The notes under the pieces were generated by a model that searched no databases, was not told the origin of the DNA, and saw only the letters and a list, made by a program, of their open reading frames with translations. From Chiridota heheva (lineage: Eukaryota > Echinodermata > Holothuroidea > Apodida > Chiridotidae), in the NCBI GenBank assembly GCA_020152595.1, contig JAIGNY010003255.1:1-64000 (forward strand): a DNA stretch of 64,000 bases, in the 5' to 3' direction. Positions 1 to 38,970 of this stretch are shown in pieces; position 1 is the first letter of the stretch, and each line of letters opens with the position of its first letter. Position numbers and translations under genes: made by a program.

Positions 1-107
1 TGGTGGTCGCGTTGATGCACGTGAAGAGGACTAGGGGTGAACAAAGTAGCTGCCCCTCGCACACAAGAGGTATCCTTTTGTGCAAAGGTGTTATGGACAG
101 TCCGTGA

Positions 108-115
108 TGACGTCA
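108..115. promoter_or_regulatory. CRE-type palindrome TGACGTCA, conserved in both duplication copies
   Basis: A perfect TGACGTCA palindrome. The same octamer is present at 23716-23723 in copy 2 although flanking bases differ. It is the consensus for CREB/ATF-type factors. No transcript is visible nearby, so a regulatory role is only inferred. Confidence 0.25.
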
Positions 116-1689
116 CGGATGGTCTTCTGATACGCACATTATATCATGGGTGGAATATTGTGATATATATAGTAACTGAACCTAATTTCGTGCACCACTA
201 ATTTCGTGCACACCCCTATATTATGTACGATTCCATCTAGTTTTAGCAACCAATTTCGAACATTTGGACCTACGAGCTGAAACACATTTCAAATTGTAAA
301 AATGACGCTTCCTGGGGTAGGGGAGAAAATACAATATAACTACATCCTAAAAATATGTTTTCCTTTTAAAAAATTACTGGTCCAATTGCCTTCCATAAAA
401 CAGCAATTTTTCCTTCTCATCGAACACACACTGTCTGCTATCACTGACGTTGGGATGAAGGACGTTTTATCATGTAATGATGGCCTAAGCTATAATAAAA
501 AGTTTAAACAAAGGTCACATCGGGTCCAAAAGTGATGAATATTTAAACTTTAATAAAGCTAAACTTTAACTTAAGGCTATGACATTTACAAAAGTTGATT
601 TCCGTCCGCAATGAGTGTGTGAAAATTATATATTTTCTTATAGCATTTTTATTCAAATGAATAATATGTGAGCATTAATGCACAAAAAAGAGGATTAAAG
701 AAACGAATGAAAGGTCTAGGTAGATTTTTTTCATCAGTGGCAGATATCACTAAAAAAAGCTTTTGCAGAATGTTTTTTAGTACGATTGCTTGTTAAACTT
801 ATGCCTCCCCTCTCCTCCCCGGCCATTGTAAAGACTCGGAAGAGTGATTTTCAACCTTTTTGCTTTCTGACTTTTCATGGAAAAGTTTCTTTTTTATTCA
901 TCACAGTTACAAAAATGGTAGTTTAGTGAAATCTTCAAATAATTTTTAAAAGGCAAGTTCTCATTTGTTGATAAGATTGTTGCCATTTTCTTTCTTAAGT
1001 GATGCACAAAATTAGGTTCCCCCCATGCTACCTATTTTCACTATTGAATTCAAAACAGGCTGCTCCCAGCCCCAAAGCTCAACAAGCAGTAATATTTTAA
1101 CGATACAACTATATCCTGCCATCTCAATGCATCTAATACAGACGAATATTACATTGTTATGAGCCGGGCAGGGGACGGGTAAAGCAGAGAATCAAGCGAA
1201 TGAGTATAAAGATTTGTGCTAGGAGGGCACTTGCACTTTTGAAGGATGACCTGCAATTTGGTAACAACTACTGTTGCAAGAAAATATGAACAACAGAAAA
1301 ACTGATTATGTCCACTGAAACTGATAATTAGAAAAAAATCAAATAAAATATCGCAAGATGACTTTTATTTCACGATTCAGGGCACCCCAGCCTCGCTGTG
1401 GACCCCCTTTTTGAAGATTGAGTAATCATCTCAATAAATTGATGAAAATTATTTTGTTCTTTCCAATTTCATTCAACTTTAATATCAATCTTTATGGACA
1501 AATTGTATCCTTTAAATTTGAAAATTGGAAACAGAAATCCCTAACGGAACTTTGTCGTGTGGACCTAAGGACGAAATAAAAGAGTTGTCGGGACCAGGTC
1601 TGATCAGTTCAAGATCAGTATCAAAAAATAAAAATATGACAAATATATTATCTCGAGGGCCATTGAAACCGCTTTAAATAGTGGAAGAA

Positions 1690-2080
1690 AACACCAAAAA
1701 TTGCCCATAAATGAAAGAAATTGCTCGAAAATCAAAGATATTGACAAAAAGTGAAAAAAAAAAAATTCCCGAAAATTAAAGATAATTGTCGAAAAATTAA
1801 AGAAAATATTACACAAAATGGATTAAATTAAAACAATTTGCAGAAAATTGAAAGAAAATATCCCAAAATTAAAAAAAAACAAAAATTGAAAAGAATTGCC
1901 GCAAAAATGAAAAGAAATTGTTAGAAAATTACCCAAAATTTATAGAACATTGTCTGAAAATCAAAGAAAATTGCTTTTAAAAGTAAGAAATTGAAGAAAA
2001 TTACCTGAAAATTGGAAGAAAATTTGCCAAAAATTGAAACAAATTTCCAAAAATGAAAGAAAGATTAGAAATTTACCCAA
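1690..2080. repeat. Dispersed AATT-rich periodic repeat block
   Basis: Degenerate run of short phrases such as AAAATTGAAAGAAAATTTCC recurring roughly every 20 nt. Related blocks occur at 19560-19990, 20760-21240, 25310-25530, 25935-26170, 38540-38970, 39210-39400, 50450-50720, 56040-56300 and 62640-62900, in both orientations. The first part (1690-1800) is absent from copy 2. No coding potential is seen. Confidence 0.75.
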
Positions 2081-2507
2081 TTGTTTGTATTATTCGCTTA
2101 AGGCCATGCAGGCTATAAGGACCAGATAACAGTATAAACAAAATCATCACCAAATTTAGGCGATATTTCACTATCTTCTTCTATTTATTTATTATTTTTT
2201 TTTTTGATGGGAGGATTGGTAGGGGTTGAGCCAGGGACGTAGCTTGAAATATGAAAGGAAAAGGACCCATGTAGATTGAGCTGATTTGTCGAAAAATCAA
2301 TCTAAGTTTTCATATAATTGGCAATAAAATATCAGAAATCGAAATGATACATCAGTACATTCCATAATCAAAATGTTACAGTTTTCATTAAGTCACTAAA
2401 GGAGGAAGTGACAGCTCCCATTGACCCCTGGCTACATCCCTGTCAGGGCAAATGAAAATTATTTTTCTTCGGGAGAATTTGTCTTACATCCTACAAATTT
2501 GCACTGA

Positions 2508-4512
2508 TATTACTAAGCCACTGATATTACTGGCTTATATTACTAAGCCAAAAACATAAGTCCTTCTTACACTGGGAACGCTTTGAGTGCCTACTACTCC
2601 GCAAGATGCCTTCCTATCTGTCTACAGTGTTTACGGAGGAACATATCTCAATGAGGATTATCAACAAGCGCAGGAGGTCTGGAGGGCATTCGAATGTGAT
2701 TTTATGGGAGATTATCACGACCTACCTGCGGACTGATGTGCTTCTACTAGCTGATGTCTTCGAAATATATCGAAAGACCTGCTTGTGGCAGTATGGTCTG
2801 GATCCAGCACACTATTATACACGCCCTGGATTATATTTGGGGTGCACTCTTAAAATATACAGGTGTAGAATTGGAACTGTTGACCTGACTAAGACATGCA
2901 CTTGTTCTTTGAGAAAGGCATGAGAGGTGGCATTTCCATAGTATCCAAGCGCTGTGCTAAAGCCAACAAGCCAGACGTCTCAGGCTATGATGATTCCAAG
3001 CCTAACAACCATATTCTTTACCTAGATGCAAATAACCTGTATGGTTGGGCAATGAGTCAAGCGCTACCCGGGTGGATTCGAATGGGTGGATGAAGTGCCC
3101 TTGCTGGATACGCTTTCACCCGATGCAGAAAAAGGGTTACATACTCGAGGTGGACCTTGAGTATCCTCAAAATTTACACGGCGTCCACAATGCGTACCCA
3201 CTTGCTCCGGAACGTATGAAGGGGTCCAAGGAGTGCTGTCAGATTATCATAAAGGGCTTCTAAACTCGTCAACTGATGTTAAAAAAGTTGGTTCCTAATC
3301 TCTGCGATAAAAAACGCTGCTCCTTGTGCACTACCAAATCTACAGCTCTACCTCGCTCTAGGTATCAAGCTGACGAAAATACATCGTGCAGTTCGATTCG
3401 ACCAAAGCAAGTGGATGGAACCCTACATCAGAATGAATACAAAACTCTGCAAGAAGGCCAAGATCAAATTTGAGAAGGACTTCTACAGACTGAAGAACAA
3501 TAGCGTCTTTGGTAAGACTATGGAAAATCTGCGTAAGCGTGTAGACGTCAAACTCGTGAGAGCTTCTGAAGATGACAGCTTGGCCGGTGGTTAACTAGCC
3601 CCGCGTTTGCAAGGCATGTGGTATTTGATGATGATCTAGCTGTCTTACACATACATAAACGCCGGCTGATGCTTAACCGGCCAGTGTACGTGGATTGTGT
3701 GTCCTGGACCTGAGTAAACATCTATTGTACAACTTTTATTACAACAAGCTCAAGGAGCAATACGGGGGCGGGTGCAATCTTCTCTATGGAAATGCTGGAT
3801 AGTCTTCTACTTGAAATCCAAACCGAGGATGTATATGCTGGTATGAGTTCTGAGTCACCTCTCATGACACGAGTGATTATCCGACAGACCACTCTGCCCA
3901 CAGCATCACGAACAAAAAGGTGCTTGGCAAAATAAAAGACGAATGTCGAAGTACCCATTAACGAGTATGTAGGGCTGCGACCCAAATGTTTTCTATTCTG
4001 AAGGGAGATAGAGGCGAGATCCGAAAAGCAAAAGGTGTTAAAAAGTATGTTGTGAGAAAAAATATACGACATCAGCAGTACAAAGAAGCTTTGTATGGCA
4101 GCAAGACATTTCGTCACGGTATGAATCTATTGAGAAGCGAACACCACATTATATGTAGCATGCGAATGATTACAATTCTCTTGTCACCTCTCGATATGCA
4201 AGCGCTGGGTTGTAAAGTGGACCACTCACCACTATGGCCTTTGGCTACAGGGATTAATACAACAAAAAATATATACAAGTAAAATTGAAATATAAAAAAT
4301 AATAAAAATAAAAAAAGATGAATAGAAAATAATAATCAATAAATAAATAAAACAACACATTTTTCTGTCATAAATCTATAAAGTGTCAGAGCCCCAGTCC
4401 ACATAGTGAAATAAAAGACGATCGAAAAAGTGTCCCCCGCCTAATTAGGAAAACAAAAAACGACGCAAAAGTGACCAAAAAAGTGTCCCAGAACACCAAT
4501 TTGTATACTACT
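2508..4512 (+). mobile_element. Polinton/Maverick-type element remnant, specific to copy 1
   Basis: Segment lying between the two collinear parts of the duplication in copy 1 only. It contains a decayed protein-primed family B DNA polymerase of the kind carried by Polinton/Maverick transposons. No integrase, capsid, ATPase or terminal inverted repeat is visible, so this is a fragment. The ends are set by where homology to copy 2 stops, so the element boundaries are approximate. The last 230 bases (4280-4512) are A-rich and non-coding. Confidence 0.75.
2606..4282 (+). pseudogene. Decayed protein-primed family B DNA polymerase (Polinton-type)
   Basis: Successive frames give recognisable polymerase pieces in the right order. 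An Exo III-like motif YLRTDVLLLAD lies near 2723-2755. A motif A region with DANNLYG is near 3025. A motif B-like NNSVFGKTMENLR is near 3495-3534. A motif C region lies near 3782-3800, where the usual YGDTDS aspartates are no longer readable and the frame is broken. The tail around 4000-4280 resembles the C-terminal end of the family. Exo I and Exo II are missing, so the 5' half is truncated. At least five frame changes and several stops show it is dead. The family assignment rests on motif order and spacing known for Polinton polymerases; no database search was possible. Confidence 0.85.
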
Positions 4513-4627
4513 AGTCAAAAAGTATTTTTAATTCTCTGGAAGAAAATTTACTGAAGGGGTTTCTCTTGTACTCTATGACAAGTGTTACAACAGAGTCGGC
4601 GTATCCAGCGTACTTGATAACATTGCT

Positions 4628-4636
4628 TATAAAAGG
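4628..4636 (+). promoter_or_regulatory. TATA-like box upstream of receptor pseudogene (copy 1)
   Basis: TATAAAAGG in a stretch well conserved with copy 2 (30291-30300). It lies about 790 bp before the pseudogene start. By analogy with copy 2 it could drive a short 5' untranslated exon followed by an intron. Inference only. Confidence 0.35.
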
Positions 4637-5039
4637 TGTCCAAGGCTACGCCTCTGACTTCTTGCCCGTTGACGCCATGTGGCGAGGAAGGAGATCAACC
4701 CTGTTGATACGTGTGTCCGTGTACGTAAAAGTGTTCAGAATATTATGTTCTATTGCAATAAACCTATGAATGGGTTAATAACATGCTTCAAAGTAGAAAG
4801 CTCTAATCGTCGATACATCAGAAATGTGCCAAGATAAATAAATGCCAACCTGAAAAGAACGCTATGCCGGAAACCAAATGTAAAACATAAATCTTTATCT
4901 TTCCATCCAGGCCTGTTATACAACACAACTCGCCACCACATCCTTTGCTCTTATAGGTGTAATTAATGGCAACAATCGAGAGTATGAATAAACAGTGTCA
5001 ATATGTCCAAACAGGCCTATCGATTACTCTTTCACGGCA

Positions 5040-5285
5040 AATGTTGTCCAAGTGTAGGATAAGATTATTTTTTTTAAAAATAACATGATGGCAATTATCA
5101 GTTATTTGCCTAACATGCTGAGAGGATATATTGACTGTACTTTCCGCCAAAAGGTTGTCAGATGTAGAATGAGATTTGCTGTCAAAATGATACAATGACA
5201 TATCAGTTGTTTGTCAACAAAGAAGCAAAAAACTATTTGCATGTGCAAGTAACGTGAGATTGTTAATATTTTCGTCTTTAACTGT
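5040..5285. repeat. Diverged local tandem duplication, one unit lost in copy 2
   Basis: Two diverged units can be seen, each running from a phrase like CAAATGTTGTCCAAGTGTAGG to a phrase like GGCAATTATCAGTTATTTG. Copy 2 keeps only one unit (about 30725-30815), joined directly to GTTTAAGCAACAAGC. The region is non-coding and lies just upstream of the receptor gene. Confidence 0.5.
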
Positions 5286-5414
5286 TTAAGCAACAAGCTA
5301 TATGGTTATTTGGAATAATTTTAACGGATTACGATGTGGTTTGATGAACAACAATGGTGATTAGTGCTAGTGATTAGATTTGTAGTGAAACCTTTGATGA
5401 AATCACTTCCAGAG

Positions 5415-6956
5415 ATGTTTTTCTTGCATTGCTCTACTCTGTCAGTTATCTTATTTGACTAAGTGCATTGATATTAATTTAGAACAGTAACCAGGTATAC
5501 TTATGGGGTTGACAGGTATATTTCTCCTACAAATAGTGATTTCACTCTGTACTGTAAAGCCAAGTTTGAAAGAGTTTGAGTTAAAATCATTTGTCATTTT
5601 GAAGATAGGATCAATGCATCCAGCAATTATACACTGGTTGAAATGAATTATGCTACTCTGTCATACGGAATTAAAGGAACGATAGCATCTCATTTACATG
5701 CAAGCAAGTGTACACAATAAATGTAACAATATCTGTTTTATTGCATGTCAAGTTTCATGTAATTTCTATGGATACCAATTTTGCTTATGTGGCTGCGGAA
5801 AGATTGCATTGATCGGCGAGAATCTTAAGTTGAAGCTGTCTCAGGTAAGACAGAATCATTCCTCCATGGAGCATCAATTGACAGAAGAAGCATCATCTGT
5901 GTCCAGCTTCGTGTCATACTAGTAGTGGAAAATGGAACAGTGGGCACGAAGTTATGCACATTTGAAATGATCGAAATTAGAACAAATCTCTTTGTAACGA
6001 CACAAATATAAGCTCATCAGGATTGAAATTTAATTTGTTCTTCAACGCCAGAGGCAGAAGTTTACTTTAGTTTATCAACGTATCTACTGACACGCACCTC
6101 TTGGCACTAGCTTTGATGAATACAATGAATCAATCCCATTTGTAGATATTTCGAGCGGTTTTGGAAATTCTACACTTATTCTTCATGGAACGGAATTGAA
6201 ATATCTTAATATTACGTGTGTGAAGCGAGGTTTTTGAAAAGGGTCGACTATTTTCTTGCTGATAGGAATGATATTGCTACGTCATTGTCAACACAAAACC
6301 CATTTATAAAGCTATAGGATCAACAAGACTAATCCTTCTGGAAAGACTACTGTGATGTCTTCAATACATGGTTACAAACTAAAGAGTCATCAAAAATTGA
6401 TCGGTATACAAACAATACGGTGATGTATGACACTACACGGTTACAAACTAAAGGCTTTACAAAAGACTAATCCTTCTGAAAAAACCACGGCGATGTCTTT
6501 AACTACATGGTTAGAAACTAGCAGATTCCTTAATCAAACCACACGTTCAGTTTGACATCAGCAACTAATAAATTTGCTTTGAACCTGGGTGAAATGGCTG
6601 TGAATACCATTTCCGGCTTCACAGCACTAATAGTCATTGGGGTGGTCCTTATTTTGACAGTTGTAACTCTGTGTTGTACTGTAACATATAGAAAGTGGCT
6701 ATTGAAATAAACAGCGGATAATTACCCAACAAATTCTCCGAATTGTGACATAAACAATACTGTTGGTATAACGCTAAAAGAAATACATCATTATTTGCAA
6801 TAAATGAGCCAGAGCCAGACCAATCTCTACAGAGCACGGGTTTTGCTGAATATTCATTCACAGTTGCGGTTGATGTGCACGAAATAAATGTGAAAAACTG
6901 GTCCCGAAATGATATACAATGCAGTGTACGAACAGTCAAACGCAAATTGTGCATGA
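5415..6956 (+). pseudogene. Receptor-like gene, decayed copy of 30953-32530
   Basis: The whole length aligns with the intact gene at 30953-32530, from the signal-peptide ATG (5415) to the TGA (6954-6956). A single-base deletion near 5427 shifts the frame and leads to a TAA within about 16 codons. Later there are further indels and in-frame stops, for example TAG where the intact copy has the TGG of the third Ig-like domain, and a lost G in the codons after the transmembrane segment. Transmembrane and tail segments are still readable in pieces. Many lesions are one-base changes in short homopolymers, so some could be sequencing errors, but the number of substitutions argues for real decay. No function is expected. 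Confidence 0.9.
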
Positions 6957-7002
6957 ATAAAATAAAGTGAAATAAAGTCTAAGTCTTAATCTACTTCACT
7001 TT

Positions 7003-7399
7003 GAATTATTCATGACCTCTTAATCTTGAAATGATCCATGTACAATAATTTCATAATCAAATCATAATTTCAATTGCGTAGGTCATAAAGTGTTATACAA
7101 GTCACTATATTAATTCACCGAGAAATCCCGAAGAACAATTTTTATAGAAATTTATTGTCCCAAATCTTGGCTTAATGTTTGCGTTTTATTTATATCTGAA
7201 ATTATTCATGACTCTAAATCTTAAGAAATGATCCATATACAATGATTTTATAATCAAATTATGGTTTCTATTGCGTAGGTTGTAAAGTGTGATACGAGTC
7301 ACTATATTAATTCTGAGAAATCCCAAAGAACAATTTTTACATAGAAATTTATCGTCCCAAATCTTGAATTAATTTTGCGTTTAATTTATATCTGAGATT
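7003..7399. repeat. Two-unit tandem repeat (about 197 bp) 3' of receptor pseudogene
   Basis: Two adjacent units begin with ATTATTCATGAC and end with TTATATCTGA. They share internal phrases such as GAGAAATCCC and AACAATTTTTA. The same dimer follows the intact gene at 32578-32960, so it predates the large duplication. Confidence 0.8.
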
Positions 7400-7475
7400 G
7401 ATGAAATTATATCTAACATGTACTCTGGAATGATATTTCCAAAATGTTTCTTACACACACCTGAAACAACGCACA

Positions 7476-7485
7476 TATATAAAAG
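7476..7485 (+). promoter_or_regulatory. TATA-like box TATATAAAAG downstream of receptor pseudogene
   Basis: TATATAAAAG, identical to 33044-33053 in copy 2. About 50 bp further on both copies have CTCGTAAGTTTAG, which could be a splice donor. This could start a second transcript of the cassette, but AT-rich DNA produces such boxes by chance. Confidence 0.3.
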
Positions 7486-7499
7486 CTTGAAACTGACTA

Positions 7500-8405
7500 A
7501 GTTTATATGTTTGGTTATTACTCGTAAGTTTAGACAGAAATAAGAAGTACTGGTTTTAAAATGAAGCGAAAATATTTATCACCTCACTGTATACAGCTGA
7601 TATACTGCAGTAATATTTGTAAAGACTATACATTAGTGCAAAAATATTATGCAAATTCCTGCTTTTTAGAATTTGTAAGAGCTAGTGTTCAACTAATGTA
7701 TGCAAATGTTTCACATTGCACTGCGCTAGCTGTATATGTGATTTTTCAACAATGATTTCCCAGATCTCTCTCGTTTTATTTAAATGTAGTAATTTCATGC
7801 CCTACACTTACTATATAGGTCTAAGTATACTAGAAAGCCCAGTAAAATTATGCATCCAGAATCAGTAAGTTTACAAAATGCTTTCTGTTATTTAAACATA
7901 TATAAATAGCAACTGCATTTTTTTGTAACGGGTTCTATTTTTCTCTGTATTTACGATACGTCAAATTTTTAGTTTGAGTATAAACTGATGAATTAATTTA
8001 TTTAGCATTTACACTTTTCATTTTTAAGGTTGTAACTGTTCTATGTATAGTGTGTATGTTTTCATCGTAGCCTTTGAATATGTTCCTTCATAAAACACTG
8101 TAATTAAACTAAATGCATATAATGGCTTTTGCAAGTAAAAATTTGCTTAAAGCTTTCCAGATGTACTGTATAGGCCAATCAACTGTACAAACAAAATTAC
8201 AGGAGTAGGCCATTTGTCTTATAATTTATCAAGCAGATCCTCTTATGTTGCAACATAAATAATTGAAATAGACATATTAATCAAATGAAGAAAAAAAATT
8301 AGAAAACATTTTTCTCAAACAATTGAAACACTTTATAGTTTTTTGATACAAGTAGTATTATTTAAAATTACATGCTTGCCAGAAGCATCACGCACGTAGG
8401 CGTAT
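7500..8405. other. Non-coding stretch, conserved with copy 2
   Basis: AT-rich sequence aligned to 33070-33985. A 64-codon frame at 7561-7755 is interrupted by a TAG in copy 2, so I do not call it a gene. Nothing else is seen. Confidence 0.6.
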
Positions 8406-8408
8406 CAG

Positions 8409-8540
8409 CACGTGCTTATATGGAGGGCACGTGTTTACATGGAGGCACGTGCTACATGGAGGGCATGTGCTTACATGGAGGGGCACGTGATAGGAGTGGC
8501 ACGTGCTTATATGGAAAGGCACGTGCTTATATGGAGGGGC
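8409..8540 (+). repeat. 20-bp E-box minisatellite, eroded copy
   Basis: Seven units of the type CACGTGCTTATATGGAGGGG. Six units keep CACGTG and one has CATGTG. Core starts are 8409, 8428, 8446, 8464, 8484, 8500 and 8520, so spacing varies from 16 to 20 bp. Compare the exact 20-bp spacing at 33988-34127. Confidence 0.9.
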
Positions 8541-9201
8541 AAGACGACTTTTGGCCGAAAATAGAGCGATTGCCTGATTCTGAGATGGGGTTAAGTTGCT
8601 CAATTGTTGCATTTTGTTGAAACTTTTATACCAGTAATCAGCATTTTGGAATCAATATACGAATATACCTTATATTCAACATGCTATGTAGAAAATGAAA
8701 GTAAGAAATTTTGAAAATATAGAACACCAAATGGATGAGTTCTGGAACAACAAGAAACACTTTTTCTTTATTTTTTATCAATTCACCATTCTGCCCGAAA
8801 AACGCTGCTGCTGCCCAAAAATTGTCGATTTTTCGAAACGGTGGGGTGGGGATTTTCCATTGCCCTCCCGTTCCATACGGTTACACATCAATATCATCAT
8901 GCAGATGTAAAAGAAAGGTAGGAAGTTAATGATACTGACTTAATCAGGCTTCTACGCTGTGATTAAAGTAATTATAAAGCAAAGTTTAATAAAACGAAGA
9001 AAGGGTAAGCATGCTGAACTTCGCCCGCCCTTTTTCATTAATTCACTTTTCCTTTTGTAATTGAAAACAACAAAAAAGTAGAATGTACGGTTTCAAAAAA
9101 CAGATGCGTAGAATAAAGATAATCATTGATATTCTAAAGACGACTATATGTCATTTCATTTCCATGTATATGTGACAACAGTGATACGTCCCTTCCTTTA
9201 T

Positions 9202-9790
9202 ACCCACGTTCTATTCAATGACTACTTTAAAGGAGATACCCGTTCTATTCACTGACTACTTTAAAGGAGATACCCACGTTCTATTCAATGACTACTTTAA
9301 AGGAGATATCCACCTTCCATTCACTGACTACTTTAAAGGAGATACCTACGTTCTATTTACTGACTACTTTAAAGGAGATACCCCATTCTATTCACTGACT
9401 ACTTTAAAGGAGATACCCACGTTCTATTCGCTGACTACTTTAAAGGAGATACCCACGCTTATTCACTGACTACTTTAAAGGAGGTACCCACGTTCTGTTC
9501 ACTGACTACTTTAAAGGAAATACCCACGATCTATTCACTGACTACTTTAAAGGAGATACCCCCGCCCTATTTACTGACTACTTTAAAGGAGATACCCACG
9601 TTCTATTCGCTGACTACTTTAAAGGAGATACCACGCTTATTCACTGACTACTTTAAAGGAGGTACCCACGTTCTGTTCATTGACTACTTTAAAGGAGACA
9701 CCACGTTCTATTCGCTAATCACTTTAAAGGAGATACCACGTTCTATTCACTGACTACTTTAAAGGAAATACCTACTTTAAAGGAAATACC
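9202..9790 (+). repeat. 36-bp minisatellite (TTTAAA type), copy 1
   Basis: About 17 units of a 36-bp motif built from ACCCACGTTCTATTCACTGA followed by CTACTTTAAAGGAGAT. Copy 2 has the same number and the same order of variant units. Because 36 is a multiple of 3, some frames stay open and give 12-residue repeat ORFs; I regard these as artefacts. Several CCC-to-CC losses distinguish this copy. Confidence 0.95.
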
Positions 9791-9796
9791 CAAAAT

Positions 9797-9850
9797 AAAT
9801 GCTTTAAAGTAGTCCGTGAATAGAAATTCACGGACTACTTTAAAGCATTT
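9797..9850. repeat. Perfect 25-bp inverted repeat with 4-nt loop at array end
   Basis: Arms 9797-9821 and 9826-9850 are perfectly complementary and are separated by AGAA. The right arm is a near copy of the minisatellite unit and the left arm is that unit inverted, so the array ends in a fold-back. Confidence 0.9.
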
Positions 9851-9859
9851 GGTGACCGG

Positions 9860-10490
9860 AAAGTTAGGGTTTTATTTTTCAACGACTCGCATATCATAAT
9901 TAACTAAATGAAGGTTGTTGTATTTCAAAATCTCTTGGCTTAGAAAAAACAGACGCCCTCGCTTTTCGCCCTAGAGCTCCTTCAGGACGTACAATATTCT
10001 TCTATTAAATAACGATGTGTTAATGTCGTACTCATCCCCTATTTACACGACATCAGATAATATCCTATTCTTGCTAAACGTCGGTACGTCGCATTCTTTC
10101 TACCTTTGATTTCTTACCCGACCGCCGTAATTGCTCTTGTATCCATTATTATGCAATAGTCCAGCCTGTCTTATTCCGTAATCCTTGCATGGCAATGAAA
10201 CAACAAGTACGAAAGGGTGGCACCATTTTGTGTATTTGTACGGCTTATATTTACACTATATCATGACGACAACAGAAATGAAAGTTCGTTCCTAATGTTT
10301 TTCATGACGGCCGTAATTCGATTACTCCTCTTCGCTGGCTTGCTTTTTATATATTTTTGACAGAATAGTCCTCGTTCCTTACATACCAGTTTTATTGATG
10401 TACTTTTCATATATTTTACAGGGGGTAAGAGGATACTAGGATTTAGGTCTTTTGATACACATTCTAGATTTGATTTTTTTGTCTTATTTG
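9860..10490. other. Non-coding stretch, conserved with copy 2
   Basis: Aligned to 35470-36110. No convincing exon or repeat seen. It ends in a strong polypyrimidine tract leading to the acceptor at 10494. Confidence 0.5.
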
Positions 10491-10494
10491 ACAG

Positions 10495-10789
10495 CACACA
10501 AATTTGCGTGTGTACGCTATACTGCTATATGGAAACGCTTTACTTAAACATTATTCAAATACTGATCAATAATGACCGTCGCCAATGCTTAGCTATCCGT
10601 TGTGGAAAATCATTCATGAAAACAACGGAGACTTTTATCTTCAAAGTATAACTCGTTCGACAAGAGAGTTACTGTTATTCTGGAGTCCGTAGATTCCTTT
10701 GTCCCTCAATTCACTGAAAATCTCTTTGAAGACATAGAAAAAGATGGTTAAATCCATCCGAGCCATTAGGACCATATCTCCGGCAATAG
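10495..10789 (+). pseudogene. Decayed counterpart of candidate exon 36114-36408
   Basis: Begins after a polypyrimidine tract and TTTGACAG, as in copy 2. The frame that is open for 98 codons in copy 2 is broken here, for example at TTCAAAGTATAA and by a lost base near 10725. It ends at the same TAG in the first unit of the 24-bp array. Both the receptor and this exon are broken in copy 1. Confidence 0.5.
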
Positions 10790-13279: not shown

Positions 13280-13459
<180 letters not shown>

Positions 13460-26170: not shown

Positions 26171-26259
26171 CAATTTACTTCTACTGCTTGTTTAGTGTCT
26201 CTTTTGTCGACTTTCCTCCGCTTCCATCGCTCCCCCTGGCTACGTCCCTAGGTTAAGTT

Positions 26260-30160: not shown

Positions 30161-30290
30161 AAGTAAGAGTCCAAAAGTATTTTTTAACTCTTTGAAGACA
30201 ATTTTACTCGAAGGGCATTTCCCCTTCCTTGTACCCTATAACAAGGGTTACAGTAGAGTCGGCGTATCCAGCGTACTTGATAACATTACT

Positions 30291-30300
30291 TATAAAAAGG
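30291..30300 (+). promoter_or_regulatory. TATA-like box upstream of receptor gene
   Basis: TATAAAAAGG, conserved with 4628-4636. A possible donor GTAAAAGT lies at about 30396. Acceptor-like TTAG and GTAG sit just before the coding ATG (30914-30922). Taken together a short 5' untranslated exon and a roughly 520-bp intron are possible. Transcript data are needed to prove this. Confidence 0.35.
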
Positions 30301-30952
30301 TGTCCAAGGCTACGCCTCTGACTTCTCGCCACGTTGAGCCCATGTGGCGAGAGGAAGGAGATCAACCTCTGTTAATACGTGTGTCCGTGTACGTAAAAGT
30401 ATGATTCGGAATATTATGTTCTATTGCATTAAACTTATAAATGGGTTGATAATATGAGTCAAATGTAGAAAGCTCTAACCGTCGATACATCAGAAATGTG
30501 CCAAGATAAATAAATGCCAACCTGAAAAGAACGCTATGCTGGAAACCAAATATAAAACACACTCTTATCTTTAGTTTCAAATTTAAATCTCAATCTTTTC
30601 ATTTAGGTCTGTTACACAAAAAATCTCGCCATCACATCCTTGTCCTTTGCTCATATAGGTGTAATTCAACTGCAACAATCGAGAGTATAAAGAAACAGTG
30701 TCAATGTTGCCAAATAGGATTAATCAATTACTCTTTCACGCCAAATGTTGTTCAAGTGTAGGATAGGATTATTTTGCTTTAAAAATGATATGATGGCAAT
30801 TATCAGTTATTTGACTAGCATATTGTTTAAGCAACAAGCTATATGATTATTTGGAATAATTTCTAACGGATTACGATGTGGTTTGATGAACAACAATCTT
30901 TGTGCTGGTGATTAGATTTGTAGTGAAACCTTTGATGAAATCACTCCCAGAG

Positions 30953-32530
30953 ATGTTTTTCCTGCGTATTGCTCTACTCTGTCAGTTATCTTATTTAACT
31001 AAGTGCATTCCCGATGTTAATTTGGGAACAGTAACCGGGTATACTTATGGGATTGACAGGTATATTTCTCCTACAAATAGTGATTTCACTCTGTACTGTA
31101 AAGCAAGTTTAAAAGGATTGGAGTTGAAATCATTTGTCATTTTTAAAGATAGGATCAATGTATCCAGCAATTATACACTGGTTGGAATAGATTATGCTAC
31201 GCTGTCATACAGAATTAGAGGAAACGATTCAGAGAGCATCTCATTTACATGCAAAGCAGTGTATACAATAAATGTAACAATATCTGCTTTATTGCATGTC
31301 AAGTTTCGCGGCGATTTATATAGGATGGCACCAACTTGCTTGTGTGGCTGCGGAAAGATTGCATTGATCGGCGAGAATGTTAAGTTAAGCTGTCTCGGAA
31401 GAAAGACGACTCATTCCTCCATGGAGCATCAATTGACAGAAAACGCATTATCTGTGTCAGCTTCGTGTCATACTAGTAGTGGAAATGGAATAGTGGGCAG
31501 GAAGTTGTGCACATTTGAAATGATCGAAATTAGAACAAATCTCTTTGTAACGCTGACACAAATACTAGCTAATCAGGGATTGAAATTTATTTGTTCTTCA
31601 ACGCCAGAGGCAGATAACTTTACTTGGTTCATCAACGTATCTACCGACACGCACACCTCTTGGCATAGCTTTGATGAATACAATGAAACAATCCCATTTG
31701 TAGATATTTCGAGCGGTTTTGGGAATTCTACACTTGTTCTTAATGGAACGGAATTGAAATATCTTAATATTACGTGCGTAGCTAAGCGAGGTTTGTTTAA
31801 AAATGGGTCGAGTATTTTTTCTTCCGCCGATAGTAATGATATTGCTACGTCATTGTCAACACAAAACTATATGCATAAAGATATAGGATCAACAAAGACT
31901 AATCCTTTTGGAAAGACTACTGTGATGTCTTTCTATACATGGTTACAAACTAAAGAGTCATCAAAAATTGATCAGTATACAAACAATACGGTGATGTATG
32001 ACACTACATGGTTACAAACTAAAGGCTTTACAAAGACTAATTCTTCTGGAAAAACCACGGTGATGTCTTTAACTACATGGTTAGAAACTAGCAGATTCCT
32101 TAATCAAACCACACGTTCAGTGTTGACATCAGCAACTAATAAATTTGCTACGAACCTGGGTGAAATGGCTGTGAATACCATTTCCGGCTTCACAGCACTA
32201 ATAGTCATTGGGGTGGTCCTTATTTTGACAGTTGTAACTCTGTGTTGTGCTGTAACATATAGAAAGTGGCTATTGGAAATAAACAGAGGAGTAATTACCC
32301 AACAAAATTCTCCGAATTGTGACATAAACAATACTGTTGGTAATAACGCTAAAGAAATACATTATTATTCGGCAATAAATGAGCCAGAGCCAGACCAATC
32401 TCTACAGAGCACGGGTTTTGCTGAATATTCATTCATTGGTGCGCTTGATGTGCACGAATTAAATGAAAAAACTGGTCCCGAAATGATATACAATGCAGTG
32501 TACGAACAGTCAAACGCAAATTGTGCATGA
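30953..32530 (+). CDS. Type I membrane protein with Ig-like domains and tyrosine-motif tail (orphan receptor)
   Basis: Single open frame of 525 codons from the ATG at 30953; another in-frame ATG at 30935 is in a poorer context. Residues 1-18 (MFFLRIALLCQLSYLTKC) look like a signal peptide. Cys49 and Cys100 fit a first Ig-like fold. A CLCGCG cluster is at 129-133, and a second, irregular domain follows Cys147. Cys214, Trp225 and Cys275 give the classic C-W-C pattern of a third Ig domain. A Ser/Thr-rich stalk (about 316-382) has three repeats each ending in TWLQT, TWLQT or TWLET. About 14 N-x-S/T sites lie in the ectodomain. A transmembrane helix covers about 410-434. The 90-residue tail has YSAI, YSFI and YNAV. 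I infer a cell-surface recognition or adhesion receptor; no named family is recognised. A decayed copy is at 5415-6956. Confidence 0.8.
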   Translation: MFFLRIALLCQLSYLTKCIPDVNLGTVTGYTYGIDRYISPTNSDFTLYCKASLKGLELKSFVIFKDRINVSSNYTLVGIDYATLSYRIRGNDSESISFTCKAVYTINVTISALLHVKFRGDLYRMAPTCLCGCGKIALIGENVKLSCLGRKTTHSSMEHQLTENALSVSASCHTSSGNGIVGRKLCTFEMIEIRTNLFVTLTQILANQGLKFICSSTPEADNFTWFINVSTDTHTSWHSFDEYNETIPFVDISSGFGNSTLVLNGTELKYLNITCVAKRGLFKNGSSIFSSADSNDIATSLSTQNYMHKDIGSTKTNPFGKTTVMSFYTWLQTKESSKIDQYTNNTVMYDTTWLQTKGFTKTNSSGKTTVMSLTTWLETSRFLNQTTRSVLTSATNKFATNLGEMAVNTISGFTALIVIGVVLILTVVTLCCAVTYRKWLLEINRGVITQQNSPNCDINNTVGNNAKEIHYYSAINEPEPDQSLQSTGFAEYSFIGALDVHELNEKTGPEMIYNAVYEQSNANCA

Positions 32531-32545
32531 ATAAGATAAAGTGGA

Positions 32546-32551
32546 AATAAA
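32546..32551 (+). terminator. Polyadenylation signal of receptor gene
   Basis: AATAAA 16 bases after the stop codon. The pseudogene copy has AATAAA in the matching region (after 6956). Confidence 0.5.
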
Positions 32552-32577
32552 ATGTAAGTCCTAATCTACTTCACTTT

Positions 32578-32960
32578 GAATTATTCATGACCTCTTAATC
32601 TTAAAAAATGATCCATGTACAATAATTTCATAATCAAATCATGGTTTCTATTGCGTAGGTCATAAAGTCACTATATTATTTCACCGAGAAATCCCGAAGA
32701 ACAATTTTTACATAGAAATTTATTGTCCCAAATCTTGGCTTAATGTTGCGTTTTATTTATATCTAAAATTATTCATGACCTCTAAATCTTAAAACGATCC
32801 ATATACAATGATTTTATAATCAAATTATGGTTTCTATTGCGTAGGTTATAAAGTGTAATACGAATCACTATATTAATTCACTGAGAAATCCCGAAGAACA
32901 ATTTTTACATTGAAATTTATTGTCCCAAATCTTGAATTAATTTTGCGTTTAATTTATATC
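32578..32960. repeat. Two-unit tandem repeat (about 190 bp) 3' of receptor gene
   Basis: Counterpart of 7003-7399; the second unit starts near 32767 with ATTATTCATGACC. Confidence 0.8.
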
Positions 32961-33043
32961 TGAAATTGATGAAATTATATCTAACATGTACTCTGAAATG
33001 ATATTTCCAAAATGTTTCTTACACACACCTGAAACAACGCACA

Positions 33044-33053
33044 TATATAAAAG
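33044..33053 (+). promoter_or_regulatory. TATA-like box TATATAAAAG downstream of receptor gene
   Basis: Identical in both duplication copies. A GTAAGT follows about 40 bp later. It may serve a second transcript leading to the exon at 36114. Weak evidence. Confidence 0.3.
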
Positions 33054-33059
33054 CTTGAA

Positions 33060-33985
33060 ACTGACTAAGTTTATATGTTTGGTTATTACTCGTAAGTTTA
33101 GACGAAATAAGAAGTACTAGTTTCTAAAATGAAGCGAAAATATTTATTACCTCACTGTATATAGCTGATATACTGCAGTAATATTTGAAAAGACTATACA
33201 CATTAGTGCAAAAATATTATAAGCCAAATTCCTGCTTTTAGAATTTGTAAGAGCTAGTGTTCAACTAATGTATGCAAATGCTTCACATTGCACTGCGCTA
33301 GCTGTATATGTGATTTTTTCCAACAATGATATTCCAGATCTCTCTCGTTTTATCTAAATGTAGTCATTTCATGCCCTACACTTACTATATAGGTCTAAGT
33401 AGACTGGAAAGCCCAGTAAAATTATGCATCCGAATCAGTAAGGTTTACAAAATGCTTTCTGTTATTTAAACATATATAAATAGCAACTGCATTTTTTTTG
33501 TAACGGGTTCTATTTTTCTCTCTGTATTTACGATACGTCAAATTTTAGTTTGAGTATAAACTGATGAATTAATTTATTTAGCATTTACACTTTTCATTTT
33601 TTTAAGGTTGTAACTCTTCTATGTATAGTTTGTATGTTTTCATCGTAGCCTTCGAATATGGTTCCTTCATAAAACACTGTAACCAAACTAAATGCATATA
33701 ATGGCTTTTGCAAGTAAAAATTTGCTTAAAAGCTTTCGAATGTACTGTAGGCCAATCAACTGTACAAACAAAATTACAGGAGTAGGCCATTTGTCTTATA
33801 AGTTATCAAGCAGATGCCTGTTATGTTGCAACATAAATAATTGAAATAGACATATTAATAAAATGAAAAATAAAAATGAGAAAACATTTTTCTCAAACAA
33901 TTGAAACACTTTATAGTTTTTGTATACAAATATTATTATTTAAAATTACATGCTTCGCTAGAAGCATCACGTACGTAGGCGTATC
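33060..33985. other. Non-coding stretch, conserved with copy 1
   Basis: Aligned to 7490-8405. Nothing coding in both copies. Confidence 0.6.
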
Positions 33986-33987
33986 AG

Positions 33988-34127
33988 CACGTGCTTATAT
34001 GGAGGGGCACGTGTTTATATGGAGGGGCACGTGCTTACATGGAGGGGCACGTGCTTATATGGAGGGGCACGTGCTTATATGGAGTGGCACGTGCTTATAT
34101 GGAAGGGCACGTGCTTCTATGGAGGAG
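33988..34127 (+). repeat. 20-bp E-box minisatellite, seven perfectly phased CACGTG
   Basis: Cores begin at 33988, 34008, 34028, 34048, 34068, 34088 and 34108, an exact 20-bp period. All seven keep CACGTG, the E-box bound by bHLH factors of the MYC/USF/CLOCK class. Linkers vary (CTTATAT, TTTATAT, CTTACAT, CTTCTAT) while the core does not. It lies 1.46 kb after the receptor stop codon. Confidence 0.95.
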
Positions 34128-34807
34128 CAAGACGACTTTTGGCTGAAAATAAAGCGATTGCCTGAATTCTGAGATGGGGTTAAATTGCTCAATTGTTGCA
34201 TTTTGTTGAAAATTTTATACCAGTAATCAGCATTTTGGAATCAATATACGAATATACTCCTTATATTCAAAATGCTATAATCATGTAGAAAATGAAAGTA
34301 AGAAATTTTGAAAATATAGAACACCAAATGGATGACTTCGGTACAACAACAAAAACTGTTTTTTTTTTTTTTTGTCAATTCACCATTCTGCCCGAAAAAC
34401 GCTGCTGCTGCCCCAAAAAATGTCGATTTTTCGAAACGGTGGTGTGGGGGATTTTCCCATTGCCCTCCCGTTCCATACGGTTACACATCAATATCATCAT
34501 GCAGATGTAAAAAGAAAGGTAGGAAGTTAATGATACTGACTTAATCAGGCTTCTACGCTGTGATTAAAGTAATTATAAAGCAAAAGTTTAATGAAACGAA
34601 GAAAGGGTAAGCATGCTGAACTTCCCCGCCCGCCTTTTCATTAATTCACTTTTCCTTTTGTAATTGAAAAACAACAAAAAAGTAGAATGTACGGTTTCAA
34701 AATAACAGATGCGTAGAATAAAGATAATCATTGATATTCTAAAAGACGACTATATGTTATTTCATTTCCATGTATATGTGACAACAGTGATACGTCCCTT
34801 CCTTTAT

Positions 34808-35402
34808 ACCCACGTTCTATTCAATGACTACTTTAAAGGAGATACCCACGTTCTATTCAATGACTACTTTAAAGGAGATACCCACGTTCTATTCAATGAC
34901 TACTTTAAAGGAGATATCCACCTTCCATTCACTGACTACTTTAAAAGAGATACCCACGTTCTATTCACTGACTACTTTAAAGGAGATACCCACGTTCTAT
35001 TCACTGACTACTTTAAAGAAGATACCCACGTTCTATTCGCTGACTACTTTAAAGGAGATACCCACGCTTATTCACTGACCACTTTAAAGGAGGTACCCAC
35101 GTTCTGTTCACTGACTACTTTAAAGGAAATAACCACGATCTATTCACTGACTACTTTAAAGGAGATACCCACGTTCTATTTACTGACTACTTTAAAGGAG
35201 ATACCCACGTTCTATTCGCTGACTACTCTAAAGGAGATACCCACGCTTATTTACTGACTACTTTAAAGGAGGTACCCACGTTCTGTTCATTGACTACTTT
35301 AAAGGAGACACCCACGTTCTATTCGCTAATCACTTTAAAGGAGATACCCACGTTCTATTCACTGACTACTTTAAAGGAAATACCCACCTTAAAGGAAATA
35401 CC
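34808..35402 (+). repeat. 36-bp minisatellite (TTTAAA type), copy 2
   Basis: About 17 units in the same order of variants as 9202-9790. A 182-codon frame with 12-residue repeats runs through part of it (34709-35257). I judge it non-coding because neighbouring frames are equally open and copy 1 is frameshifted. Confidence 0.95.
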
Positions 35403-35408
35403 CAAAAC

Positions 35409-35462
35409 AAATGCTTTAAAGTAGTCAGTGAATAGAAATTCACGGACTACTTTAAAGCATTT
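35409..35462. repeat. 25-bp inverted repeat at array end, one mismatch
   Basis: Arms 35409-35433 and 35438-35462 around an AGAA loop. One mismatch interrupts pairing; the copy at 9797-9850 is perfect. Confidence 0.9.
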
Positions 35463-35469
35463 AGTGACC

Positions 35470-36110
35470 GGAAAGTTAGGGTTTTTATTTTCCAACGACT
35501 CGCATATCATAATTAACTAAATGAAGGCTGTTGTATTTCAAAATCTCTTGACTTAGAAAAAACAGACGCCCTCGCTTTTTGCCCTAGAGCTCCTTCAGGA
35601 CGTACAATATTCTTCTATTAAATAACGATGTGTTAATGTCGTACTCATCCCTATTTATACGACATCAGATATAATCCTATTCTTGCTAAACGTCGGTACG
35701 TCGCATTCTTTCTACCTTTGATTTCTTACCCGACCGCCGTAATTGCTCTTGTATCCATTATTATGCAATAGTCTAGCCTGTCTTATTCCATAATCCTTGC
35801 ATGGCAATGAAACAACAAGTACGAAAGGGTGGCCACCATTTGTGTGTTTGTACGGCTTATATTTACACTATATCATGACGACAACAGAAATGAAAGTTCG
35901 TTCCTAATGTTTTTTCATGACGGCCGTAATTCGATTACTCCTCTTCGCTGGCTTGCTTTTTATATATTTTTGACAGAATAGTCCTCGTTCCCTTACATAC
36001 CAGTTTTATTGATGTACTTTTTATATATTTTACAACGGGGGTAAAAGGATACTAGAGTTTAGAGGTCTTTTGATACACATTCTAAATTTGATTTTTTTTG
36101 TCTTATTTGA
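35470..36110. other. Non-coding stretch before candidate exon
   Basis: Conserved with 9860-10490. No exon or repeat can be supported. A polypyrimidine run leads into the acceptor at 36113. Confidence 0.5.
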
Positions 36111-36113
36111 CAG

Positions 36114-36408
36114 CACACAAATTTGCGTGTGTACGCTATCTGGCTATATGGAAACGCTTTACTTAAACATTATTCAAATACTGATCAATAATGACCGTCG
36201 CCAATGCTTAGCTATCCGTTGTGGAAAATCATTCATGGAAACAACAGAGACTTTGCTCTTCAAGTATAACTCGTTCGACAAAAGAGTTACTGTTATTCTG
36301 GAGTCCGTAGATTCCTCTGTCCCTCAATTCACTGAAAATCTCTTTGAAAGACATAGAAAAAGATGGTTAAATCCATCCGAGCCATTAGGACCATATCTCC
36401 GGCAATAG
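36114..36408 (+). CDS. Candidate terminal exon of an unknown protein
   Basis: It follows TTTTTTTTGTCTTATTTGACAG, an excellent acceptor (AG at 36112-36113) also present in copy 1. The exon begins with the third base of a codon and stays open for 97 more codons to the TAG at 36406-36408, which lies in the first unit of the 24-bp minisatellite. The product is basic near its end (ERHRKRWLNPSEP) and otherwise mixed; I do not recognise it. No upstream exon with a matching phase was found. The TATA-like box and donor-like GTAAGT near 33044-33095 are possible partners. The copy 1 counterpart is frameshifted. It could be a real second gene of the cassette or a lucky frame. Confidence 0.35.
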
Positions 36409-36678
36409 GTCCAACCATATCCCCGGCAATATGCCCGACCATATCCTTGGCAATATGCCCGACTATATCCCTGGCAATATGCCCGACCATATCCCTGGCA
36501 ATATGCCCGACTATATCCCCGGAAATATGCCCGGCAATATTCCAGACCATATCCCCGGCAATATGACCGACCATATCCTCGGCAGTATGCCCAACCATAT
36601 CCCCGGCAATATGCCCAACCATATCCCCGGCAATATGTCCGACCATATCCAGGCAATATGCCCGACCATATCTATGGC
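36390..36678 (+). repeat. 24-bp minisatellite, copy 2 (about 12 units)
   Basis: Same motif as 10771-11012 with two extra units near 36440-36490. Both strands have several long open frames, a by-product of the period. Confidence 0.9.
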
Positions 36679-36679
36679 G

Positions 36680-37495
36680 CAAGAGGGTGAGGGCATATGG
36701 CTCCCCAGGACGGGACGCCAGGCTATCGCATGTTAATTCCCCAGTAGTGCTGGTACTCGTTTTTTGCAGATGGGTGGACTAAAGCAAGCAAAGTGCCTTG
36801 AACAAGAACGCAATGCAGGGCTTGCGTCGGGAGTCCAACCCGGTGTTGGTACTTTTCGCATGCAAGCATGACTCCTTTACCATGCAGTGAACCACTGCAC
36901 CTCTTTAGCAAACTATTCGTCGTTCTTCGTGCGTGTAAAAGTAATGCTTTTTTTTTCTGTTGCACTTTTGAGTTATTGGGGCACTTGACCACGATAATAC
37001 ACGTCGAGCGCCAATGGCATTATGATCCAAAACTGATGATTTCAAACTCACGTTTGAATCCATGTTGTACTCCAGGAAAAAATGAAATAATGAAAAAACA
37101 TTCACATGCTTAACAGGTCTAAGAAGAAGTTCATATTTCATTGTTTATTGTTATTAACTGAGGAAAGTCTTAACACACAAAGGCATTCAAGTGAAAAATG
37201 TTAATAATACTCAATAGCCAATTATCAATCTCTACTATAATCTTATGTATAATAGAAAATCCTCCAAAAAAGAAGGACAAAAGAAGGTGATGTAATGTTA
37301 TTTATATCAGTGAGGACTTCCTTCAACACCCCGACAACCCTATTAATTCTAAGGAAATTACTTTAAAATAAAGATAAAGCGGAAGCTACAACACGTATAA
37401 TAAGGAAGAGCATTGCATTCTGGATAAAACCGAGTTAAAATAATTGAAAATCTTTCCGAGTTGTGGCTTATCGAGCTTCCAATATTTCTGAACAA
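36680..37495. other. Non-coding stretch between minisatellites, copy 2
   Basis: Aligned to 11013-11825. Frames on both strands differ between the copies, so none is called. Confidence 0.5.
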
Positions 37496-37499
37496 ATTT

Positions 37500-38538
37500 G
37501 TGTATCTGTGCTGTGTATGGCAAATATTGTATATATGCTATGTATGTGTAAGTTAGTGATATGGCAAATATTGTATATATGCTGTGTATGTGTAAGTTAG
37601 TGATATGGCAAATATAGTATTTGTGTTATGCATGTGTGGGTTAGTGATATGGCAAATATAGTATCTGTGCTTTGTATGTGTAACTTAGTGATATGGCAAA
37701 TATAGTATCTGTGCTTTGTATGTGTAACTTAGTGATATGGCAAATATAGTATCTGTGCTTTGTATGTGTAAGTTAGTGATATGGCAAACATAGTATATGT
37801 GCCATGTATGTGTAGGTTAGTGATATGGCAAATATAGTATTTGTGTTATGCATGTGTGGGTTAGTAATGTGGAAAAGATTATATCTATGCTTTGTATGTG
37901 TAAGTTAGTGGTATGGCAAATATAGTATCTGTGCTATGTATGTGTAAGTTAGTGATGTGGCAAATATAGTATATGTGTTATGTATGTGTAAGTTAGTGAT
38001 ATGGCAAATATAGTATCTGTGCTATGTATGTGTAAGTTAGTGATATGGCAAATATAGTTTCTGTGCCATGTATGTGTAGGTAAGTGATATGGCAAATATA
38101 GTATTTGTGTTATGTATGTGTAAGTTAGTGATGTGGAAAAGATAATATCTATGCTATGTATGTGTAAGTTAGTGGTATGGCAAATATAGTATATGTGTTA
38201 TGTATGTGTAAGTTAGTTATATGGCAAATATTGTATATATGCTATGTATGTGTAAGTTAGTGATATGGCAAATATAGTATCTGTGCTATGTATGTGTAAG
38301 TTAGTAATATGGCAAATATAGTATATGTGCTATGTATGTGTAAGTTAGTAATATGGCAAATATGGTATATGTGCTATGTATGTGTAAGTAAGTGATACAG
38401 CAAATATAGTATCTGTGCTATGTATGTGTAAGTTAGTGATATGGCAATAATAATATTTGTGCTATGTATGTGTAAGTTAGTGATATGGCAAATATAGTGT
38501 TTGTGCTATGCATGTGTAAGTTGATAATATGGCAAATA
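37500..38538 (+). repeat. 44-bp minisatellite, copy 2
   Basis: About 24 units of the motif of 11826-13142, without the 132-bp higher-order period. The duplication ends inside it. Confidence 0.95.
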
Positions 38539-38539
38539 T

Positions 38540-38970
38540 AAATGAATTGAATTACCCAAAAATTGAAGTAAATTTCCGAAAAATGAACGTAATTTAATAA
38601 AAATTAAAGATTTCCTCAAAATCAGGGAAATTTCACGAAAATTGAAACAAACTTCACGAAAATTTAGCCAAATTTTACGAAAATGATTTTTTTTTACAAA
38701 AATTGAAAGCGATTTCCCGAATATTGAAAAAAAATTCTCGAAAATTGACAAATCTTTCCCAAAAATTGAAGTAAACTTTTGCGAAAATTGAAGTAAACTT
38801 TTGCGAAAATTGAAGTAAACTTTTGCTAAAATTGACACAAACTTCACGAAAATTGAAGGAAATTTTCGGAAAATTGAAGTGGATTTCACGAAAATTTGAT
38901 CATAATTTTACAAAAATTGAAGGAGATTCCCGAAAATTGAAGAAAACTTCACGAAGATGAAAACAAGATA
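38540..38970. repeat. AATT-rich periodic repeat block
   Basis: Phrases such as AAAATTGAAGTAAACTTTTGCG recur at about 20-30 nt. It is followed by CAGGGGCGTAGCC at 39043, a transposon-end-like phrase. Confidence 0.75.

Follow-up and report, generated by a model that had tools for sequence, protein, structure and literature searches.

Clustered families of immunoglobulin (Ig) receptors have been described in animals. In Hydractinia, the Alr family comprises at least 41 clustered Ig-superfamily loci of low identity, the known members being single-pass membrane proteins, and one allele was placed on a separate scaffold (PMC11067881). The fester co-receptors (FcoR) of the Botryllus fuhc locus are clustered Ig receptors of 520-610 amino acids (aa) with a signal sequence, a transmembrane helix and a long tail carrying an immunoreceptor tyrosine-based inhibitory motif (ITIM), a hemi-immunoreceptor tyrosine-based activation motif (hemITAM) or a core Y-x-x-I/L/V motif (PMC12065747). 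The SpTrf (Sp185/333) genes of sea urchins are also clustered, with tandem segmental duplications and nearby repeats (PMC5103432, PMC5491942); each gene has GA short tandem repeats at 303-792 nt from its start and stop, and the segmental duplications are bordered by GAT repeats (PMC5103432). Here, a locus of the holothurian Chiridota heheva is compared with these systems. It lies in a stretch of 64,000 bp, called the window throughout, which forms bases 1-64000 of contig C3112 (JAIGNY010003255.1; 678,111 bp) in an assembly of 1.10 Gb and 3744 contigs, in which a search returned no COX1. The window holds two copies of a gene for a putative Ig-type membrane receptor, accompanied by a series of minisatellites. 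The reading considered fairly likely is that this is a tandem duplication within a large clustered family of Ig receptors, followed by conversion of the 3' part of the unit, with the minisatellites as passengers and with probable signalling of the SH2-binding type.

The extent of the duplicated unit becomes clear when a second contig, C714 (1,060,752 bp), is included. The left end of the window is the start of its contig, and a search of the whole genome with the receptor as query returned a match at C714:1015089-1016677. The left part of the window is present again on that contig: the final ~51 kb of C714 are collinear with the first 28.8 kb of the window (C714:1009641-1025261 with window 3-15463, 96.7% identity; 1025878-1028719 with 15485-18303, 96.3%; 1030851-1034173 with 18798-22001, 91.4%; 1053871-1060752 with 21996-28849, 95.8%). 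Given this collinearity, C714 is an overlapping or allelic version of the left part of the window. The two versions also differ by a large structural change: the 19.7 kb at C714:1034173-1053871, before the last collinear piece, have no counterpart in the window (at ~22000). Within the window, 5283-12893 aligns to 30824-38540 with 92.2% identity (347 mismatches over 7796 alignment columns), and matches of lower identity go on upstream (4-1887 with 23587-25518, 1985-2509 with 25431-25931 and 4513-5116 with 30168-30821). Both blocks keep the order described in a first-pass annotation of this DNA, namely receptor gene, 195-bp dimer and arrays of 20-, 36-, 24- and 44-bp units. The cassette outlined there is indeed duplicated but was drawn too small, because homology to what seemed a spacer in the window, from 13156 onward, was found on C714 in the DNA lying left of copy 1 (from 1000659). 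Copy 1 occupies C714:1000659-1022928 (22.3 kb), its right-hand part forming window 1-13142 on the forward strand and ending with the 44-bp array, and copy 2 occupies window 13156-38540 (25.4 kb, forward strand), collinear with copy 1 on C714. The unit is therefore a head-to-tail duplication of 22-25 kb with insertions that differ between the copies. The junction (13143-13155) follows directly after the 44-bp array of copy 1, placing the tandem boundary 14 bases past the end of that array, identically on both contigs.

The receptor gene of copy 2 (30902-32530, forward strand) contains one open frame at 30935-32530, which would encode 531 aa from the first likely ATG. The predicted protein has a signal-peptide-like start, an Ig ectodomain to which three Ig-like domains were assigned by alignment and cysteines, a stalk, one hydrophobic helix and a tail. 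Part of the stalk is encoded by a tandem repeat of 69 bp (23 aa) at 31889-32090 on the forward strand, a fifth, coding, repeat that the annotation had not mentioned. Apparently, the receptor is a type I membrane protein with three Ig-like domains made from a single coding exon.

The receptor had been called an orphan. Using four protein queries, 49 places on 22 contigs were found to match it or its relatives; rows overlapping a place already listed were left out when the matches were merged. This count includes one locus twice (window copy 1 and C714) and many short or partial matches, and some of the places may represent alleles (on the small contigs C3147, C3572 and C2162), fragments or Ig proteins of a more general kind (C2141, C2488 and the long-branch C69, C3233 and C3389). 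The matches at C2141:994099-994965 and C2488:180030-180461 lie within open frames of 1993 and 1858 aa. One cluster, C413:1678948-1976521, comprises 16 of these places in 0.3 Mb, with matches on either strand. The view of the receptor as an Ig-type membrane protein belonging to a multi-copy clustered family, grown at this locus by tandem duplication, held up. Full matches to the DNA downstream of the receptor were confined to the two window copies and C714 among the 40 scored of 2525 candidates.

Among the fetched members with usable frames, 17 long frames were used for the analysis of tails and 20 ectodomains for that of cysteines. All 17 frames (441-778 aa) hold the ectodomain, one strongly hydrophobic stretch and the tail in a single open frame. 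Eight cysteines are kept in 18-20 of the 20 ectodomains and one tryptophan in all of them. A profile of nine members matched carcinoembryonic antigen (CEA; E 3.1e-9) and FceRI alpha (5e-5) in the PDB, and a profile of 15 ectodomains matched CEA (E 3.7e-19) and then DCC, NCAM2, neurotrimin, CEACAM1/6 and FceRI alpha among the 60 matches shown of 453 (E<=1). Pfam Ig_3 was found in 9 of the 15 ectodomains at E<=0.1, the window member being without it. By profile similarity, the family can be placed in the Ig superfamily. Its tails are rich in tyrosine motifs: the 17 tails together contain 37 YxxI/L/V motifs where 14.1 were expected (a number reached in 0 of 2000 shuffles) and 14 ITIM-like motifs where 4.6 were expected (0 of 2000). 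When four close relatives were dropped, the 13 remaining tails still had 28 YxxI/L/V motifs against 11.9 expected (0 of 2000 shuffles) and 11 ITIM-like motifs against 3.9 (4 of 2000). On another contig (L031, C3189:15001-25000), a frame at 7049-7708 with three YTEV/YTEI motifs, and a fourth in which C replaces Y, sits downstream of a family ectodomain fragment and could be a tail exon. Judging from composition and architecture, the receptors probably bind something extracellular through their Ig domains, and the YxxI/L/V motifs of the tail probably bind SH2 proteins and signal.

Tyrosine-motif tails are found in several families of the CEACAM and Fc-receptor type. The ectodomains described here resemble those of the mammalian CEACAM and Fc-receptor families, as the PDB profile matches to CEA, FceRI alpha and FCRL5 indicate, but have an eight-cysteine pattern and an apparent single coding exon; the likeness is one of profile and implies no orthology. 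More generally, immune receptors of the ITIM/ITAM type such as Alr, FcoR and the Fc-receptor-like proteins share the build found here, that of type I membrane proteins whose tails carry tyrosine motifs. As clustered Ig receptors with tyrosine motifs, Hydractinia Alr and Botryllus FcoR are nearer in build to the present family than SpTrf, both being likened by build and not by homology. With Alr, the locus also shares the presence of one version on a separate contig. FcoR differs in having a sushi domain and adjacent partner genes where three Ig-like domains are found here; no sushi family was listed for 10 proteins (E<=1) or 15 ectodomains (E<=0.1) of the present family. SpTrf genes are small and have two exons; they are flanked by GA repeats and their duplications by GAT repeats, neither of which occurs here: within 1 kb of either receptor (5397-6953, 30935-32530), Tandem Repeats Finder listed no GA array, and at the edges of the unit, where the 44-bp array stands on one side only, it listed no GAT array.

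Two levels of divergence were found when copy 2 was compared with copy 1 of C714, the pair used for all values in this and the next paragraph unless another is named. Pieces of the unit upstream of the receptor have 6-10% mismatches, and 5.6 kb of the unit diverge by 2.6-2.9% against 6-10% elsewhere. A change point was located at 31875 (support 31827-32066), with 7.6% divergence to its left and 2.7% to its right; its log-likelihood gain is 34.7, where 200 permutations gave a 95% point of 5.1 and at most 10.3. Splitting the left part again at 30824, between 10.2% upstream and 6.0% in the 5' part of the gene, gained only 4.7. The main change point coincides with the coding 69-bp repeat of the stalk. 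Synonymous divergence (dS) falls along the gene in the same direction, from 0.15 (signal peptide and domain 1) over 0.105, 0.073 and 0.027 to 0.012 (membrane helix and tail), and noncoding divergence is 0.108 upstream and 0.029 downstream. Three noncoding arrays lie inside the low-divergence tract (31875-37417, 2.6%), and the 44-bp array lies at its end as well as at the edge of the duplication. This last array differs by 7-16% per 250 bp in the alignment but cannot be aligned with confidence, so that it can be placed neither inside nor outside the tract. In view of the change point, the simplest reading of the 3' tract is probably gene conversion.

The ratio of nonsynonymous to synonymous divergence (dN/dS), a check proposed in the first-pass annotation, was 0.27 for the signal peptide with domain 1, 0.58 for domain 2 and 0.71 for domain 3, giving 0.51 for the ectodomain and 0.57 overall. 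Bootstrap replicates with dN > dS made up a share of 0.00 in domain 1 and 0.02 in the ectodomain. By this measure, the receptor pair has been mostly under constraint. Positive selection on the 5' half of the receptor was considered as a source of its greater divergence and was rejected, as synonymous sites show the same gradient and the ectodomain ratio is below 1. A value of 0.93, obtained from copy 1 of the window against copy 2, was set aside since that copy is probably rich in errors.

The arrays themselves can be traced in part to older sequence. The 195-bp dimer lies at 7004-7399 in copy 1 and at about 32579-32967 in copy 2, the 20-bp array with its CACGTG at 8408-8541 and 33987-34129, the 36-bp array at 9200-9772 and 34806-35387, the 24-bp array at 10770-11006 and 36389-36672, and the 44-bp array at 11829-13142, where its end is the tandem junction, and 37516-38540, where its end is the right end of the unit. 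A hairpin had been noted with the 36-bp array; it corresponds to a 56-bp inverted repeat just after that array in both copies (9796-9851 and 35408-35463). Numbers of units in copies 1 and 2 are 7.2 and 7.2 for the 20-bp array, 16.1 and 16.2, in the same register, for the 36-bp array and 29.7 and 23.3 for the 44-bp array, and the 24-bp array is 48 bp (two units) longer in copy 2. When the genome (1.1 Gb) was searched with a 22-base core of the 36-bp unit, allowing up to two mismatches, all 46 matches fell in the two copies and in copy 1 of C714. The uniqueness of the 44-bp array rests on a genome search with cassette DNA, a search that skips simple repeats. The segments 34105-34340 and 36671-36913, by comparison, are dispersed genome-wide. 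The first ~20 bp of the 34105-34340 repeat correspond to the unit of the 20-bp array, and three fetched copies of the repeat (L038-L040) have a single unit-like segment in place of the array, with CATGTG or another variant instead of CACGTG. The 24-bp array of copy 2 lies within the other dispersed repeat, of which 36671-36913 is the remainder and which we take to be tRNA-SINE-like (SINE, short interspersed element), a judgement made by eye from a box motif. Three fetched copies of it (L041-L043) have a short, unexpanded segment in place of the 24-bp array, from which the 24-bp unit would derive.

The 20- and 24-bp arrays are local growths within dispersed repeats, and the noncoding minisatellites would have been copied along as passengers. 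An ordered series of minisatellites can thus consist of expanded pieces of dispersed repeats carried by a duplication. A further stretch (L044, C1478:466150-467550) holds a member of the SINE-like family in which a unit of 77/78 bp, and not of 24 bp, is expanded about seven times. The present case differs from known SINE-derived tandem repeats in that the arrays are local minisatellites and the SINE nature of the dispersed repeat was judged by eye. It resembles them in that one dispersed family bears the 24-bp array of the window and the 77/78-bp array of L044, the growth of tandem repeats from part of a SINE being known (PMC10702118).

The history proposed for the locus is as follows. The receptor gene was duplicated head to tail together with ~22-25 kb of surrounding DNA. 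The right breakpoint lies where the 44-bp minisatellite ends, and the sequence at the left one has no 44-bp array; unequal crossing-over of array against array is for that reason unlikely, and a replication slip or end-joining near the 44-bp array would be a more likely cause. A stretch within the 3' half of the unit, running from the coding stalk repeat toward the 44-bp array, would afterwards have been made alike again, most likely by gene conversion. The noncoding minisatellites, as local expansions of which at least two arose in dispersed repeats, would have travelled as passengers. What retains interest is then the receptor family and the edge of conversion within the gene, by which shared tails would be joined to ectodomains that diverge. 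It is tentatively suggested that the family may be an undescribed receptor complex of this animal lineage for allorecognition or innate immunity. Several dozen clustered receptors, each encoded by one exon, would have eight-cysteine, three-Ig ectodomains and tails with tyrosine motifs. Conversion whose edge lies at the coding stalk repeat would keep tails and 3' DNA common to neighbouring genes and leave the ectodomains to diverge, and conserved signalling parts would thereby be coupled to new binding parts; the pattern of diverging ectodomains and shared tails was seen in this one pair. If it were a true recognition system, another animal lineage would have large clustered Ig receptors with tyrosine-motif tails, as do Hydractinia and Botryllus, and a test case for ectodomain divergence with tail homogenisation would be at hand. 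No published one-exon, three-Ig family was recognised in the literature searched, and papers outside that search may describe one.

Some observations weigh against parts of the proposed history. Taken alone, the window receptor has no Pfam Ig match; a PDB search with its single sequence gave no significant Ig match, only a weak one to CD166 (E 0.72), its single-sequence structure prediction reached a mean pLDDT (predicted local distance difference test score) of 34, and its tail has three YxxI/L/V motifs and no strict ITIM. The dN/dS ratios of domains 2 and 3 (0.58, 0.71) are not clearly below 1, and those of stalk and tail are 1.49 and 1.15, both on few changes. The likeness of the 3' parts may also stem from a second, younger duplication followed by loss. 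The position of the 44-bp array at the right edge of the unit makes a role in breakage possible. As to the state of copy 1, the window's excess of gaps peaks at 4.5-12 kb and is small over the first 4.5 kb, and 3-2509 has an excess of substitutions and none of gaps, neither pattern being predicted by a simple error gradient toward a contig end; one frame break persists in copy 1 of C714, which may be a recent pseudogene or contain another sequence error.

Other explanations concern the reality and the state of the two copies. A window that begins a contig and is overlapped by C714 could in principle be two alleles falsely joined end to end, the whole duplication being an artefact of assembly. 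This is highly improbable: the end of copy 1, the start of copy 2 and an identical junction between them are found independently on C714, differences between the paralogues (9-12%) are well above those between the contigs (2-4%), and the 1918 sites compared in the upstream part include 138 that tell copy 1 and copy 2 apart, identically on the two contigs, from which it follows that the duplication is no assembly fold of two alleles. The annotation had described one receptor as decayed, and copy 1 (about 5397-6953, forward strand) does have many frame breaks and five in-frame stops in the window, with 22 gaps against 7 in copy 2 when the two window receptors are aligned and an omega of 0.93 relative to copy 2. 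Were copy 1 a true decayed pseudogene, the differences on C714 would be allelic; the frame break in C714 copy 1 and a gap excess that is not greatest at the very contig end fit this. Such decay is nevertheless rather unlikely. When copy 2 and both versions of copy 1 were compared at 6388 sites with no gap close by, private substitutions numbered 85 in the window and 6 on C714, and over the whole comparison there were 79 and 2 short private deletions and 18 and 4 private insertions. The excess extends to noncoding DNA (31 against 3 substitutions in three regions at 32531-37480, in copy 2 coordinates), for which reason the decayed look is probably an effect of poor sequence near the contig end and not of loss of function. 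Gap events number 83 in the window and 20 on C714 at 4503-12002, the zone where the window is without short stretches that C714 has and where its sequence is probably poor, against 39 and 27 at 3-4502 and 5 and 5 at 12003-13142; the excess thus ends at ~12 kb, and there are few gaps in 15485-18303 and 21996-28849. At 3-2509, private substitutions number 57 against 8 with similar numbers of gaps. Against copy 2, the C714 receptor frame shows one frame-breaking gap, not at the place of any window break in the alignments, and one 3-bp gap, and its dN/dS is 0.57. Poor sequence near the end of a contig can thus mimic a pseudogene in a nearly intact gene.

The remaining alternatives concern mechanism and function. 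The annotation had proposed birth and death as in sea-urchin SpTrf, with minisatellites as recombination borders that drive copying and loss. In agreement with this, the 44-bp array of copy 1 stops at the tandem junction and that of copy 2 at the right end of the unit, the divergence change point falls at a tandem repeat, albeit a coding one within the gene, and minisatellites of other units occur in five stretches with family genes (L028, L029, L030, L033, L034). Yet the proposal now seems quite unlikely. The breakpoints lie away from the arrays on the left, where copy 1 on C714 has no 44-bp array at its edge, and only on the right at an array end; three of the four arrays are internal to the unit, the 36-bp array having stayed in register with an almost unchanged number of units and its core being found only at this locus. 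The array set is absent from all nine stretches that were fetched from beside other family genes (L017, L027-L034), and stretches outside the family also have 1 to 7 minisatellites per fetched piece, which shows that minisatellites as such are ordinary in this genome. With respect to function, a family of adhesion or neural Ig proteins, not concerned with recognition or immunity, is possible though somewhat doubtful. Ig domains are not specific to immunity, and DCC, NCAM2 and neurotrimin follow CEA among the profile matches shown. Against it stand the large clustered family, including the 16 places on C413, its wide divergence (19-31% to the window receptor in 8 of 9 aligned members, the ninth being C714 copy 1), the tails rich in YxxI/L/V and the fact that both profile searches returned CEA and Fc receptors.

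Other features of the window were also recorded. A frame of 131 codons at 36013-36405 on the forward strand, described in the annotation as a candidate exon, is uninterrupted in copy 2 and also in C714 copy 1, the two differing by 4 synonymous and 6 nonsynonymous changes; it has no Pfam match, its last codons extend into a dispersed repeat, and coding is not supported, the sequence giving good evidence neither for nor against an exon. At 2525-4282, in copy 1 on both contigs and with no match in copy 2, broken frames resemble, by eye, a protein-primed DNA polymerase of the Polinton type; three pieces of this stretch had no Pfam match. A THAP-domain fragment is encoded on the minus strand at 61176-61556 (Pfam THAP, E 0.00063, below the curated cut-off). 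A long foldback at 43148-43665 matches its own reverse complement at 82%, and 59062-59275 and 61795-62006 form a pair of inverted repeats of about 213 bp that are 93% identical.

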